A DNA stretch of 64,000 nucleotides from contig NZ_AP014879.1 of assembly GCF_002355735.1 (NCBI RefSeq), forward strand, positions 1,922,001 through 1,986,000, in the 5' to 3' direction. This DNA comes from Sulfuricaulis limicola (lineage in GTDB: Bacteria > Pseudomonadota > Gammaproteobacteria > Acidiferrobacterales > Sulfurifustaceae). The translations under genes were made by a program, and so were the position numbers. Positions 34,789 through 52,621 of the stretch are shown piece after piece (the first letter of the stretch is position 1; the number at the start of each line of letters is the position of its first letter). The notes beneath the pieces were generated by a model. It saw nothing but the letters and a program-made list of their open reading frames with translations, did not search any database and was not told where the DNA came from.

Positions 34789-35586
34789 TTACGGTTTCTT
34801 CGCCTCCGCCAGTACCCAGGCAATGCCCACCCCGGCCATGAAAGAGGATTTTTTCTTCACCAGCGGGCTGTCCTCGAAGGCCGCGCCGGAAAGGCGATCA
34901 TAACGCGCGAACGCCCCGACCCAGAAATCCGGGAAGCGCCGGCTGGCGGTGAAGGTCAGGCGGCTGCCGCTGTAACCGCCCGGCGCGTCGTAGGCCGGGC
35001 GCACGGCGGTGGCGAAAGCCGGCGCGACTTCATAATAGTAATCGTGATACTGCTCCGAGGCGTACAGCGGGCCGACCGCGATGCCGCCACCCCAGCCATT
35101 GTTGTTACGCAGGCGGTAATTGAGGCTGGGCGCGAACACCCAGCCGATGCCTTCTGCATGCGTGAGATCGGTCGCGATGACCGTACGCAGGGGCAGCTCC
35201 AGCTGCCACGCACGGTCGTCCGTCAGATAAATCTCCAGTGAGGGGCCTACCTCCACGGTCGGGTCGATGTCCGGCATGTCGCGTCGGGCCGCGTTGTCAT
35301 CGCTGCGGGCCGGCGGGCCGGCCGCGGCGCTCAGCTCCAGCCGGACGCGCTCCGAGCTGAACAGCTTGCCGTGCGCGCCCTCGCGGTCGATCTGAAAAAT
35401 CTCGCCCCGGTACTGCACGTAGGGCAGGGGCAGAAGATAACCGCTCTGTTCATCCGAGCCCCGGTAGTCGGGGATGCTCAAACCGGCCAGGCCCAGCCCC
35501 AGCTCCCAACGCGGCAAGTCGGCGGCACGCGCGGCGGACACGAGCAGGCAAGCCGCCATGAATGAAGGAATAAGTATTTGGCGCAT
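34789..35586 (-). CDS. MipA/OmpV-family outer-membrane protein
   Basis: MipA-type proteins are outer-membrane scaffolds linked to murein-modifying complexes. The start MRQILIPSFMAACLLVSAARA gives a signal peptide cleaved near ARA; a TAGGA lies nine bases upstream. The mature protein has the family opening WELGLGLAGLSIPDYRGSD and LLPLPYVQYRGEIFQIDREG, and repeated beta strands to the end. At 265 residues it matches the family. Overlap with the divergent TraB/GumN gene is avoided with this start. Confidence 0.88.
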   Translation of the reverse strand: MRQILIPSFMAACLLVSAARAADLPRWELGLGLAGLSIPDYRGSDEQSGYLLPLPYVQYRGEIFQIDREGAHGKLFSSERVRLELSAAAGPPARSDDNAARRDMPDIDPTVEVGPSLEIYLTDDRAWQLELPLRTVIATDLTHAEGIGWVFAPSLNYRLRNNNGWGGGIAVGPLYASEQYHDYYYEVAPAFATAVRPAYDAPGGYSGSRLTFTASRRFPDFWVGAFARYDRLSGAAFEDSPLVKKKSSFMAGVGIAWVLAEAKKP

Positions 35587-35650
35587 CGGCATTCCTAATA
35601 TATTCTTGGGTACATGGTAATCGGGCCCTCTTCCTGAAGCCATCCGCTCC

Positions 35651-36610
35651 ATGCGACGACATTTCGCCATCCGCCCGGCGTCATTCATGACGGGTTTCTA
35701 TTCCTTTATAAGACTTCTCCTTGCCGTCCTTTTTGTCCTGCCGCTCTGGACCGGCGCGGTGGCGGCCACCGCCACCGCGAAAAACAGCGTCAGCGCCGCC
35801 GGGCCGGCGGTACGCAACACCAAGGGTCTGCTGTGGAAAATCGAATCCCCGGGCGCCGCGGCCAATTATCTGTTCGGCACCATCCACTCCGATGACCCGC
35901 GCATTACCGCACTCCCCGACGCCGTCACCCGCACGCTGGACGCCTCCACTCGCTTCGTCATGGAAGCGATCATCGACGGCGAAAGCCTGATGCGCATGGC
36001 CGAGGTCATGTTCTTCAACGATGAGCGCACCCTGGAGCAGGTCGTCGGCCGGAAACTCTACGCGGAATCGGTAAAGGCATTGAGCGCGCGTGGCATGCCG
36101 ACACTGGGTGTCGAGAAACAAAAACCCTGGGCGGTAATGATGGCGCTGTCCATGCCGCCGCCCCGGACCGGCGAATTCCTCGATCTCGTGTTGCAGGCGC
36201 GCGCCGCGCAACAGAACAAACCCGTGTCCGGGCTGGAAACCGTCGCCGAGCAGCTGGCGATATTCGACGAGCTGCCCCTGCGCGACCAGGTGGCGCTGCT
36301 GGAAGACACCGTGCGCCTGCAGCCGGAGCTCGACCGGGAATTCGAGGCGCTGCACAAGGCCTGGCTCGCGCGTGACCTGGCCGCGATCATCGCGATCAGC
36401 GAAAAGCACAAGCCGACCGATGAACGCCTGTACCAAGAGGGCATGGACCGGTTGATCGTCCAGCGCAACCGGCGCATGGCTGAGCGCATGACGCCGATGC
36501 TCAAACAGGGCGGCGCCTTCATCGCCGTGGGGGCGGCGCATCTGCCGGGTGAAACCGGCCTGTTGCAGCTGATCGAGAAGGCCGGGTATCGTGTCACCGC
36601 GATCTATTAA
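35651..36610 (+). CDS. TraB/GumN-family protein, probable secreted hydrolase
   Basis: The 319-residue protein has an N-terminal signal or anchor (FYSFIRLLLAVLFVLPLWTGAVA). A TraB/GumN (TIKI-like) domain follows, with the signature YLFGTIHSDDPRI, the central VSGLETVAEQLAIFD and the terminal FIAVGAAHLPGETGLLQLIEKAGY. Related TIKI proteins are metalloproteases that use the GxxH and GAxH motifs seen here; activity in bacteria is mostly untested. Met13 (MTGFYSF) is an alternative start. It is divergent from the MipA-like gene. Confidence 0.87.
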   Translation: MRRHFAIRPASFMTGFYSFIRLLLAVLFVLPLWTGAVAATATAKNSVSAAGPAVRNTKGLLWKIESPGAAANYLFGTIHSDDPRITALPDAVTRTLDASTRFVMEAIIDGESLMRMAEVMFFNDERTLEQVVGRKLYAESVKALSARGMPTLGVEKQKPWAVMMALSMPPPRTGEFLDLVLQARAAQQNKPVSGLETVAEQLAIFDELPLRDQVALLEDTVRLQPELDREFEALHKAWLARDLAAIIAISEKHKPTDERLYQEGMDRLIVQRNRRMAERMTPMLKQGGAFIAVGAAHLPGETGLLQLIEKAGYRVTAIY

Positions 36611-36707
36611 TACTGAAGAATAAACAAAGGAGACAGACATCTCTTCCAAAAAAACGAAAAACCGCAGGAAACCGCGCCGGAAAAAACCCGCCCGGCGTCC
36701 CACGATC

Positions 36708-37712
36708 ATGTCCTGGACGCGCAAGTCGGACGAGAATCTGCTCGACACCCGGCTGTGCGACCTCGGCCTCACGCTCGAAGGTGGCAAGATGCAGAAAGAG
36801 GTCGAGCTGCTGTGGCGCGAGCTCGTCAACCGCGGTTTCGCCTTCCGCCCGCACGTGTGGCTGTCGGACTGCTGGTTCTGTCCGGACGGCGTGCCCGGCT
36901 TCGCCATCCCGTTCTACCTCGTGCACCCGCGGCTGATGCGCCTGGAAAAGGCTCAGATGCTCGAATTCGACGGCAACACCTCGGAATCGCGCATGAAGCT
37001 GCTGCGCCACGAGACCGCGCACGCGCTGGCCAACGCCTACCGCCTGCACCTGAAACAGAGCTGGCGCCGCCGCTTCGGTCGCCACAGCAAAATCTATCCC
37101 GAGAGCTACCTGCCGCGGCCTTACAGCCGTAATTACGTGCTGCACCTCGACAACTGGTACGCACAGAGCCACCCGGCCGAGGACTGGGCCGAGACCTTCT
37201 CGGTGTGGCTCGACCCCAATTCACGCTGGCGCGAGCGCTATCGCGACTGGCCGGCGCTCAAGAAACTCAATTACGTGGATGCGCTGATGAAGGAAATCGT
37301 CGGCCACGCGCCGCCGGTGCGCACCAAGAAACAGGTGGATTCGCTCAACACTCTGCGCATCACCCTGCGCGAATATTTCGCCGAGAAGCAGACACGCCTG
37401 CAACAGGACCTGCCGTACTTTCACGAAGAGCAGCTGCGCCAGATCTTTCCCGCCTCGGTCAGCCACAAGAACGAGCGCGCGGCGCATTTCATACGCCGGC
37501 TGCGCCGCGAGGCCATCAACACCGTCGCCCGCTGGACCTCCGAGTCCCGCTACCGCATCAACCTGACCATCGAGGACATGATCCATCGCTGTGAGGAGAT
37601 GAACCTGCACGCCGCGCGCGACAAGGACGAAACCAAGATCGCGCTCATTTCCTCGCTCGTCATGCTCTACATGGGCTCGCTGCGCAGCGGCATGTCGCGC
37701 CTCGCCATATGA
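36708..37712 (+). CDS. Putative zinc metallopeptidase, possibly starting at an AUC codon
   Basis: The zinc signature HETAH (residues 101-105 from this ATG) and a downstream Glu in HPAEDWAETFSVW (about 158-162) identify a gluzincin-like protein. The N-terminal CWFCPDG pair may bind another metal. The ATG has no clear ribosome site. An excellent one (AAAGGAGA) lies 82 bases upstream, followed at 36,639 by ATC TCT TCC in frame. This would add 23 very basic residues (KKTKNRRKPRRKKPARRP). No standard start exists in that extension, so AUC initiation is possible. It precedes an ATP-grasp gene, suggesting a make-and-cleave peptide system. Confidence 0.8.
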   Translation: MSWTRKSDENLLDTRLCDLGLTLEGGKMQKEVELLWRELVNRGFAFRPHVWLSDCWFCPDGVPGFAIPFYLVHPRLMRLEKAQMLEFDGNTSESRMKLLRHETAHALANAYRLHLKQSWRRRFGRHSKIYPESYLPRPYSRNYVLHLDNWYAQSHPAEDWAETFSVWLDPNSRWRERYRDWPALKKLNYVDALMKEIVGHAPPVRTKKQVDSLNTLRITLREYFAEKQTRLQQDLPYFHEEQLRQIFPASVSHKNERAAHFIRRLRREAINTVARWTSESRYRINLTIEDMIHRCEEMNLHAARDKDETKIALISSLVMLYMGSLRSGMSRLAI

Positions 37713-37923
37713 ACATATTTCTCAATCCCTCTCCCCTCCGGGGGCGAGGCGGAAACGGGAAAAGGTCCGGTGGACCTTTTCCCCGCCGAGCGGGTGCGCC
37801 CGATTCTGGCGCACCCCGGGCGAGAAGAGGTAGGGAGAGGGGCGCAATACCGCGCTATGGCACAACCTCTCACCCTCTCCCCCGCCCTCTCCCTCAAGGG
37901 AGAGGGGGTTATGAGGCAAAATC
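37713..37923. repeat. Repeat-filled gap with two-hairpin repeat copy B
   Basis: Copy B spans about 37,749-37,831. Hairpin 1 has a 12-bp stem (GGGAAAAGGTCC/GGACCTTTTCCC, 37,757-37,783), followed by the link CGCCGAGC. Hairpin 2 has a 9-bp stem (GGGTGCGCC/GGCGCACCC, 37,792-37,816), then CCGGGCGAGAAGAGG. A separate CCCTCTCCCT/AGGGAGAGGG hairpin lies at 37,885-37,906, immediately before the ATP-grasp gene. The gap interrupts an otherwise compact gene pair. Confidence 0.75.
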
Positions 37924-38943
37924 ATGAAAAAGCTGCGCGTCATGCTGGTGGTGCACTACACGCTGGTGCCGCCGGACGACCTGCACGACAAGAACGACCC
38001 GCGGATGGAGAAGTTCCGCACCGAGTACGACGTCAAGACCGCGCTGCTGAACATCGGCCATGAAGTCCAGGTCGTGGGCGTCTACGACGACCTGGCGCCG
38101 ATCCGCAAGGTCATCGAGGAATGGAAACCGCACATCGCCTTCAACCTGCTGGAGGACTTCGCCGGCAACAGCGCCTTCGATTACTACGTCGTCAGCTATT
38201 TCAAGATGATGCGCATCCCGCACACCGGCTGCAATCCGCGCGGCCTGCTGCTGGCGCGCGACAAGGCGCTGACCAAGATGATCCTCACCTATCACCGCAT
38301 CAGCGTGCCGGACTTCGACGTGTTTCCGCTGCGCAAGAAAATCAGCAAACGCCGCAAGTTCACCTGGCCGCTGATCGTCAAATCGCTGACGGAGGAAGGC
38401 TCGGTTGGCATCGCCAAGGCCTCGTACGTGGAAAATGAAACCCAGTTGCGCGAGCGTGTCGCGCTGATTCACGAAAAGCTCAACGGCGACGCCATCGCCG
38501 AGCAGTTCATCGAAGGGCGCGAGTTCTACGTCACCGTGCTGGGCAACACCAAGCTCGAAGTGCTGCCGATCCGCGAGCTGGTGTTCGGCAACGCCGAACC
38601 GGGCACACCGCACATGGCGACCTACAAGGTGAAATGGGACGACAAGTACCGCGAGCGCTGGGGCATCGAATACCAGTTCGCGCGCAACCTGCCGAACGGC
38701 ACGGAAGAGCGCATCAGCAACCTGTGCAAGCGTGTGTATCACCTGCTTGACATGGACGGCTACGGCCGCATCGACCTGCGCATGGCAGCGGACGGCGAGC
38801 TGTACGTGCTGGAGGCGAACCCCAATCCCGGCATCGCGCGCGACGAGGACTGCACCCTGTCCGCCATCAAGTCCGGATTGAGTTACGAAGACTTCATCCA
38901 GCGCATCCTCCACTTGGGGCTGACGGCGCGCTCCATCGAGTAA
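37924..38943 (+). CDS. ATP-grasp ligase related to D-alanine-D-alanine ligase
   Basis: A 339-residue cytoplasmic ATP-grasp enzyme predicted to join a carboxylate to an amine through an acyl phosphate. It resembles Ddl: N-terminal LRVMLVVHYTLVPPDD, central WPLIVKSLTEEGSVGIAKAS (ATP lid and Lys), AEQFIEGREFYVTVLGN and the Mg2+ site VLEANPNPGIARDEDC. The N-terminal substrate half differs from true Ddl, and the gene is far from murein genes, so the substrate is probably different. GAGG lies seven bases before the ATG. It follows the metallopeptidase gene across a repeat-filled gap. Confidence 0.88.
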   Translation: MKKLRVMLVVHYTLVPPDDLHDKNDPRMEKFRTEYDVKTALLNIGHEVQVVGVYDDLAPIRKVIEEWKPHIAFNLLEDFAGNSAFDYYVVSYFKMMRIPHTGCNPRGLLLARDKALTKMILTYHRISVPDFDVFPLRKKISKRRKFTWPLIVKSLTEEGSVGIAKASYVENETQLRERVALIHEKLNGDAIAEQFIEGREFYVTVLGNTKLEVLPIRELVFGNAEPGTPHMATYKVKWDDKYRERWGIEYQFARNLPNGTEERISNLCKRVYHLLDMDGYGRIDLRMAADGELYVLEANPNPGIARDEDCTLSAIKSGLSYEDFIQRILHLGLTARSIE

Positions 38944-39139: not shown

Positions 39140-39598
39140 ATGGCAGAACTCATCAATGGCTTCCCCTCTGACGGCATCGTCACGATCAACCGCGTGCTGC
39201 TCAAACCCCAGTACACGGTGGACGACCTGCAGGAACGTGTCGCGGTACTGTGCGAGAACGTGAAGACCTACCACTCCGACACCGGCTTCGTCGGCGGTTT
39301 CGTGGCGCTCAACAGCGGCGCCATTTCCAACGAAGGCTCGACCATCGGGCAGGCGGTGAAAAGTCCGCTCAAGGACAAGGAGGCGCTGATCGTGACGTTC
39401 TGGCGTTCCTTCGAGGAACATGAACAGTCGCACCGCAGCGACACCTTCCAGCCGCTGTTCAAGCAGGTGCTGGAGTTGTGCGAGAACGGCAACGAGGAAA
39501 TCGCCTACTCCATGCTCTGGTCCGGCCGTGCCTACTCCCCCGAGGAGGCTAAAGAGGCGCGCAAGGCCAAGGCCAAGTACGGCAGCAAGGCGGCGTAA
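39140..39598 (+). CDS. Conserved hypothetical protein (152 aa)
   Basis: Begins MAELINGFPSDGIVTINRVL after a strong GGAGG site. It is soluble, of mixed alpha/beta pattern, with a central EEHEQSHRSDTFQPLFKQVLELC helix and a basic tail (EAKEARKAKAKYGSKAA). The middle (VAVLCENVKTYHSDTGFVGGFVALN) hints at a dimeric ferredoxin-like monooxygenase fold, but this is only an impression. It follows the metallopeptidase and ATP-grasp genes in the same direction and is closed by a terminator. Confidence 0.75.
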   Translation: MAELINGFPSDGIVTINRVLLKPQYTVDDLQERVAVLCENVKTYHSDTGFVGGFVALNSGAISNEGSTIGQAVKSPLKDKEALIVTFWRSFEEHEQSHRSDTFQPLFKQVLELCENGNEEIAYSMLWSGRAYSPEEAKEARKAKAKYGSKAA

Positions 39599-49022: not shown

Positions 49023-49053
49023 CCCCTCTCCCCCACGTTGTGGGGGAGAGGGG
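49023..49053. repeat. Strong GC-rich hairpin (CCCCTCTCCCCCAC type)
   Basis: A 14-bp perfect stem CCCCTCTCCCCCAC/GTGGGGGAGAGGGG lies between the response regulator and the hybrid kinase, 105 bases after the regulator stop. It has no U-run. Similar CCCTCTCCC palindromes occur at 37.9, 52.6 and 60.2 kb, so it is likely a dispersed repeat that may also stabilise mRNA ends. Confidence 0.7.
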
Positions 49054-52532: not shown

Positions 52533-52621
52533 GGAATAACAAAGCCGCCCGCCGGGCGGCTTTTCTTTTTCTCCCCTCTCCCCTCTCCCCTTTAGGGGAG
52601 AGGGCTAGGGAGAGGGGTAAA

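Follow-up and report, generated by a model that had tools for sequence, protein, structure and literature searches.

A conserved two-gene module of a probable zincin peptidase and a Ddl-type ATP-grasp ligase in bacteria

VanA and VanX are the classic case in which a ligase of the Ddl family is paired with a zinc dipeptidase, and tubulin tyrosine ligase with its carboxypeptidases is the precedent for reversible end modification. For other branches of ATP-grasp ligases, the passages of PMC8939145 that deal with them propose that peptidases feed the ligases peptides cut from other cellular proteins. The locus described here lies in a window of 64,000 nucleotides (G000:C1:1922001-1986000) of the Sulfuricaulis limicola genome, a single contig of 2.86 Mb, and consists of a gene for a probable zinc peptidase (PEP) followed by a gene for an ATP-grasp ligase (LIG). 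A search of titles and abstracts found no account of such a pair, and in no paper found did "putative zinc-binding metallopeptidase" or "Peptidase_Mx" stand together with "ATP-grasp"; the survey of amidoligases reportedly published by Iyer and Aravind in 2009 was outside this search.

Gene layout and the start of PEP

PEP (36639..37712) and LIG (37924..38943) are both on the plus strand. On the same strand, a TraB/PrgY/gumN gene (35651..36610; PF01963, E 2.4e-64) ends 28 bp before the ATC codon at 36639, and a MipA-like gene on the minus strand (34789-35688) is located two genes upstream of PEP. Downstream of LIG there are a 152-aa gene (39140-39598, plus strand), whose product weakly resembles sulfur oxygenase reductase in its N-terminal part, and, from the ORF list, a 1241-aa gene which we take to encode methionine synthase. 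Close relatives belong to a genus of sulfur oxidisers.

The start first given for PEP, at 36639, is an ATC codon with a Shine-Dalgarno sequence, AAGGAG (36627..36632, plus strand), 6 nt before it; an in-frame ATG is found at 36708. We compared the window with its close group (L002-L006 and L010). All seven genomes have, at the same place, AAGGAGAC, then ATC (six genomes, the window included) or ATT (one genome) 6 nt after GGAG, and then a Lys/Arg-rich stretch. Because AAGGAG precedes it and ATC or ATT stands at the same place in 7/7 genomes, the ATC at 36639 looks right as the true start. In L002, L005 and L006, there is no in-frame ATG, GTG or TTG between the upstream stop and a conserved SWT motif, and L004 offers just one in-frame alternative, a TTG upstream of its Shine-Dalgarno site. 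An ATG or GTG does stand at most 8 codons from SWT in the window, L003 and L010, for which a later start is possible. Codon counts in two groups of three equal-length tails, with L002 excluded, gave more synonymous differences in the tail frame than in both shifted frames in 6/6 pairs. Apart from infC and pcnB, few genes are known to start with AUC or AUU; initiation at such codons could well be studied on the conserved start of PEP.

The basic N-terminal tail that begins at 36639 (plus strand) has counterparts elsewhere. Across 67 loci, Lys and Arg make up 35% and Asp and Glu 2.7% of the tail residues, and the net charge of the tail is at least +4 in 24 loci and at most 0 in 18. These 67 are the loci to which a simple rule could assign a start in a set of 70 canonical ones, freed beforehand of duplicates and of four loci whose starts were broken, cut or unclear; the tail lengths are rough.

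PEP and LIG are separated by 211 bp in the window (37713..37923) and by 216 bp in L002, whereas in most relatives they overlap by 4 nt or have a short gap between them. Nearly all of the 211-bp stretch is a dispersed repeat, which we presume to be of the REP/MITE sort; with its own site counted, it has matches at 15 places in the genome, most of them partial. The stretch at the same site in L002 is like that of the window at both ends and different in the middle, which in each of the two, read by eye, is a hairpin. With this repeat goes CCCTCTCCC, present in 12 copies in the window against 0.55 expected and clustered also at 49024-49052 and 52574-52616.

Predicted activities of the two proteins

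The initial annotation described a zinc peptidase with HETAH, and this motif is present in PEP at 37008-37022 on the plus strand (residues 101-105 counted from 36708). An alignment of 29 rows has 45 invariant columns, which include H101, E102, H105, H146-Q153 (HLDNWYAQ), H155, P156, E158, D159 and E162. PEP thereby contains HExxH with a downstream Tyr and Glu of the gluzincin type, in a Y-x6-E pair (Tyr151 and Glu158 in the alignment, numbered from 36708, plus strand); in lethal factor and PPEP-1, the Tyr and Glu at such spacing are the oxyanion Tyr and the third zinc ligand. The CxxC-like N-terminus described along with HETAH is not a family trait, DCWFC being confined to 7 of the 29 rows, namely that of the window and the six nearest to it. 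The closest PEP found outside the window, at 90% identity, is from a Sulfuricaulis MAG.

At E <=1, the sole Pfam match of PEP was Peptidase_Mx (PF15887), which at 26 bits was just below the gathering cut-off of 27; M15 (VanX type) was not among the matches. The best listed matches of the structure model (pLDDT 84.6) were zincin proteases, with lethal factor at Z 8.2 and Pro-Pro endopeptidase at 7.5, and 4l7a, a solved putative zinc peptidase, was among the fold matches at Z 5.7. These are modest matches, confined to residues 1-205 with an rmsd of 3.4-5.2, and according to the tool's own warning a Z at this level may reflect a common arrangement only. About 125 further residues are helical in the model and hardly covered by the listed matches. 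In a weak sequence match (E 0.75), YAGSKPSED of 4l7a aligns with YAQSHPxED of PEP and shares Y-x6-E. A sequence search of solved structures as a route to the identity of PEP was unconvincing, giving four weak matches of which the best (E 0.023) was to a designed binder. The conserved residues and the model indicate that PEP is probably a zinc peptidase of the zincin fold.

LIG matches the C-terminal domain of D-ala D-ala ligase (PF07478, E 1.7e-28), as expected from its initial assignment to that superfamily, and its structure model (pLDDT 88.9) has the Ddl-type ATP-grasp fold (1ehi_A: Z 32.1, rmsd 2.8, 309 aligned). However, LIG was below the curated NCBIfam cut-offs for Ddl (129.2 vs 243 and 111.1 vs 245.65 bits) and for VanA (47.2 against 775 bits), and also below the RimK cut-off (15.6 against 21 bits). 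The Sulfuricaulis genome carries a separate ddl, flanked, by our own naming of the genes, by murB and ftsQ (murB-ddl-ftsQ). When seven LIG sequences were aligned with this Ddl, three Lys, three Glu, an Arg, an Asp and an Asn were common to all; we take them to be the ATP site. The N-terminal GG-x-S-A-ERE and the PGMTxHSL of Ddl, presumably its D-Ala-binding motifs, are replaced, and LIG has at the position of PGMTxHSL an invariant NPNP and then a near-invariant Asp. This is a reason against naming LIG a D-Ala-D-Ala ligase. A ligase acting simply as Ddl had been put forward as one finding that would undo the initial annotation, and the curated scores and the replaced D-Ala motifs speak against it. 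Judged by sequence, both genes keep their catalytic motifs and LIG is distinct from the genome's Ddl, and on this ground a murein link was set aside.

Conservation of the pair and its neighbours

We sampled 86 distinct loci by PEP similarity, having removed five duplicates and counted each place once. Pairs were counted with profiles because crude gene calling let antisense ORFs displace PEP or LIG in some loci. LIG was found directly downstream of PEP on the same strand in 71 of the 86. With starts inferred, the gap was at most 30 nt in 60 of the 71 paired loci, and in 39 the PEP stop and the LIG start overlapped by 4 nt. The 15 unpaired loci were 12 members of a divergent PEP subfamily, one locus at a contig end and two exceptions. 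An earlier scan of genome contigs for PEP only had given 29 loci with LIG directly downstream in 26, counting L028 (a broken copy) and L030 (cut by a contig end). At L017, the LIG is cut off at the PEP locus and a strong LIG is present on another contig of its genome; L012 and L022, which are draft genomes with a canonical PEP, had LIG neither beside PEP nor, as a strong match, elsewhere in the genome. The divergent subfamily is mostly unlinked, a LIG-like gene being nearby in 2 of its 12 loci, in one case on the other strand.

The pairing was reproduced within single groups. Among Gammaproteobacteria, PEP was present in 12 of 274 genomes, and LIG was next to it at 12/12 loci, one LIG being truncated by a contig end. 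In Planctomycetota (PEP in 49 of 199 genomes), the best-scoring 30 loci all had LIG, and in 20 further regions so did 8/8 canonical PEP, of which one (L117) is broken; the other 12 regions hold the divergent PEP loci. PEP loci were found in 15 of 117 Omnitrophota genomes; 14 of the 15 were paired and the last was cut by a contig end. This set overlaps the earlier sample, as G278 and G276 recur and a third locus scores as L016. Paired loci thus occur in five phyla (Pseudomonadota, Planctomycetota, Omnitrophota, Bdellovibrionota and Myxococcota), most of them on MAG contigs, for which some phylum labels may be wrong; a sixth, Acidobacteria, depends on the draft contigs L028 and L030. No fused PEP-LIG protein was seen; where open frames were long, as in G207, they ran from stop to stop. 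These results show that PEP and LIG form one conserved two-gene module.

The two genes also go together at the level of genomes. In the 274 gammaproteobacterial genomes, LIG scored at least 430 bits in 11, all of them with PEP; the twelfth LIG is the one cut by a contig end, and the next LIG-like score was only 191 bits (Fisher 9e-19, a test that scores the cut genome as a miss). In the 199 Planctomycetota genomes, a LIG-like gene (E <=1e-60) was found in 54; 48 had both genes, one had PEP only and six a LIG-like gene only (Fisher 3e-38). These p-values are a guide, because the genomes share ancestry and no more than the best candidates from a first look were scored in each search. When the Planctomycetota were split by PEP class, LIG-like genes were present in 39/39 genomes with a canonical PEP, 9/10 with a divergent PEP only and 6/150 without PEP. 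Strict thresholds (PEP 390, LIG 360 bits) left 38 genomes with both, one with PEP alone, which is the broken G464, and five with LIG alone, three of which carry a divergent PEP. Among the weaker LIG-like genes are members of a different ATP-grasp family that occurs in tandem (L157, L158, L160, L162 and L164-L167); with that family excluded, LIG-like genes remained in 7/10 divergent-PEP genomes (two near contig ends) and 2/150 genomes without PEP.

Several other arrangements of ATP-grasp genes came to light. A recurring cluster (L122:3599-9357, L162:2900-7114, L165:4059-6626 and L166:4514-8446) has two tandem Ddl-like ATP-grasps, with a lysine-2,3-aminomutase-like radical SAM gene in L122, L162 and L166 and a GNAT acetyltransferase gene in L122, L162 and L165; the GNAT of L122 is fused to a histone-deacetylase domain. 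At L159:4863-7996, a LIG-like ligase precedes a weak match to C39 peptidases (below the cut-off), after which comes a glycosyltransferase. In L129:4933-7592, a LIG-like gene and a gamma-glutamyltranspeptidase gene overlap by 4 nt, and G277:C105:613-2583 (L050, L056) is an open frame of 763 residues with seemingly two Ddl-like ATP-grasp domains.

We compared PEP and LIG trees (IQ-TREE quick, SH-aLRT only) built from 70 pairs with 67 different PEP rows; L012, L017, L022, L028, L030, L037 and L117, in which a partner was below threshold or broken, were excluded. The distance matrices correlated with r 0.82, a figure that still contains shared species history, and this r was reached by 0 of 2000 permutations; 36 of 67 splits were common to the two trees. 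Because the gammaproteobacterial loci L041 and L042 have planctomycetes as their nearest rows in both trees, the sequences suggest that the pair was transferred as a unit. The mean distance of window-clade PEP to other gammaproteobacterial rows was 1.23 versus 0.79 among those, and the same comparison for LIG gave 0.63 versus 0.66. By these distances PEP, unlike LIG, is fast-moving in the clade of the window.

Around the pair, no third gene (neighbour ORFs of at least 60 aa) was conserved outside close relatives. The TraB/PrgY/gumN gene is upstream in L002-L006, L010 and L036 and absent from the other loci within the flanks examined, and the 152-aa gene was found in L002, L004, L005, L006, L008 and L036; both are lineage neighbours outside the conserved unit. 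No shared theme emerged from Pfam scans of 10 neighbour proteins from 7 loci, 10 from 7 divergent-PEP loci, 3 proteins beside canonical gammaproteobacterial pairs and 10 beside unlinked LIG-like genes. As regards defence, PADLOC had no match at E <=0.01 for PEP, LIG or the 152-aa protein; as regards mobile elements, PEP in tblastn at 1e-5 had none in plasmid and phage collections.

The neighbourhood survey that the initial annotation called for thus found a conserved association (71/86 loci), and gene neighbourhood together with co-occurrence gives strong support to the functional link that it drew between the two enzymes. The 152-residue protein, which it had named after the ligase under 36639-38943, is real; its gene lies beyond that interval and was found only in some gammaproteobacterial loci. 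Its view that the genes are unconnected with murein genes is borne out for the conserved unit, though the window itself has the MipA-like gene two genes upstream.

Possible functions and comparison with known systems

The data suggest that the pair is an undescribed cut-and-join (or join-and-cut) system acting on a common cell peptide or protein. Our tentative preference, held at somewhat under even odds, is for a translationally coupled and probably cytosolic module in which PEP trims and LIG then joins. PEP, a zincin endopeptidase with an extra helical C-terminal part and often a basic tail, would cleave some peptide or protein shared by many bacteria and encoded away from the pair. LIG would use ATP to turn a carboxylate into an acyl phosphate and join an amine, such as an amino acid or the end of a peptide or protein, to the PEP product. 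Because PEP comes first and in many genomes LIG starts within the PEP stop, matched amounts and a hand-off between the two may be expected. Outside close relatives the pair has no further conserved neighbour, and the substrate is therefore likely to be made elsewhere and to be common, perhaps a single housekeeping one. Counting against this proposal are L012 and L022, which gave no strong LIG, the mostly unlinked divergent PEP, the five Planctomycetota genomes that under strict thresholds have LIG but no canonical PEP, the modest fold match of PEP, and the 211-bp stretch that in the window takes the place of the overlap.

Nearly as likely is a reversible modification, in which the amino acid or peptide that LIG adds to a protein or metabolite would be removed again by PEP. 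The genomics are the same for both: near-obligate pairing, coupled genes and the absence of a further conserved neighbour fit equally well. Against an opposed pair, the nearest listed fold relatives of PEP are endopeptidases, and constant co-translation of opposing enzymes would presumably be wasteful without separate control. Even so, such a pair remains a serious, if less than even, possibility.

Maturation of a RiPP-like product without a dedicated precursor seems unlikely. Here LIG would take a peptide freed by PEP from a host protein and modify it into an exported or signalling peptide. In the parts of PMC8939145 that describe them, branches 7 and 8 combine ATP-grasp ligases with peptidases in the absence of a precursor and branch 2 includes zincin and Tiki/TraB peptidases, and a TraB-family gene adjoins the pair in the window. 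However, that gene was found in the close lineage only, LIG is of the Ddl type and under the RimK cut-off (15.6 vs 21 bits), and no conserved transporter was found beside the pair. Among ORFs of at least 60 aa, none that might be a graspetide precursor was conserved beside the pair outside close relatives.

A more specific form of trimming and joining is comparably doubtful: PEP, held by its tail, would trim a conserved protein bound to ribosomes or nucleic acid, LIG would add a new end, and the AUC codon would tune expression in Sulfuricaulis. If true, this would be a horizontally moving two-gene cassette that rewrites the terminus of a housekeeping protein.

Remodelling of murein precursors in the manner of VanA and VanX, LIG making an alternative to D-Ala-D-Ala and PEP destroying the normal dipeptide, is improbable. 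The Ddl fold of LIG agrees with it, but LIG falls well short of the cut-offs for VanA and Ddl (47.2 vs 775 and 129.2 vs 243 bits) and has neither of the D-Ala motifs, the only Pfam match of PEP (E <=1) is to Peptidase_Mx and not to M15, and no further conserved gene was found beside the pair. That two functionally unrelated genes stay together by chance or hitch-hiking, as the two canonical PEP without LIG (L012 and L022) might hint, is hardly credible given that order, strand and overlap are conserved across five or six phyla and that PEP and LIG occur in the same genomes even when unlinked.

A fixed partnership of a peptidase and a ligase with overlapping genes in at least five phyla points to self-contained chemistry on a widely shared substrate, and PEP and LIG are small enough to be expressed as a whole two-gene system. 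When compared with known systems, LIG shares with Ddl (TIGR01205/PF07478) the fold (Z about 32), the PF07478 match and the ATP-site residues, but is under the NCBIfam cut-offs and has its D-Ala motifs replaced, with NPNP instead. PEP has HExxH, Y-x6-E and the general fold of its first 200 residues in common with Peptidase_Mx and the lethal factor and Pro-Pro endopeptidase zincins; it differs in some 125 extra residues and, in the canonical clade, in its fixed partner LIG. The vanHAX system likewise has a Ddl-fold ligase adjoining a zinc peptidase, but that peptidase is of another family than PEP, and LIG lacks the D-Ala motifs. Branches 7 and 8 of PMC8939145, as outlined in its account of them, resemble PEP-LIG in combining a ligase and a peptidase without an identifiable precursor, whereas their ligases fall in the graspetide ATP-grasp tree and their peptidases belong to several unrelated families; PEP-LIG, compared with the branches outlined there, is one peptidase family fixed to one Ddl-type ligase family.
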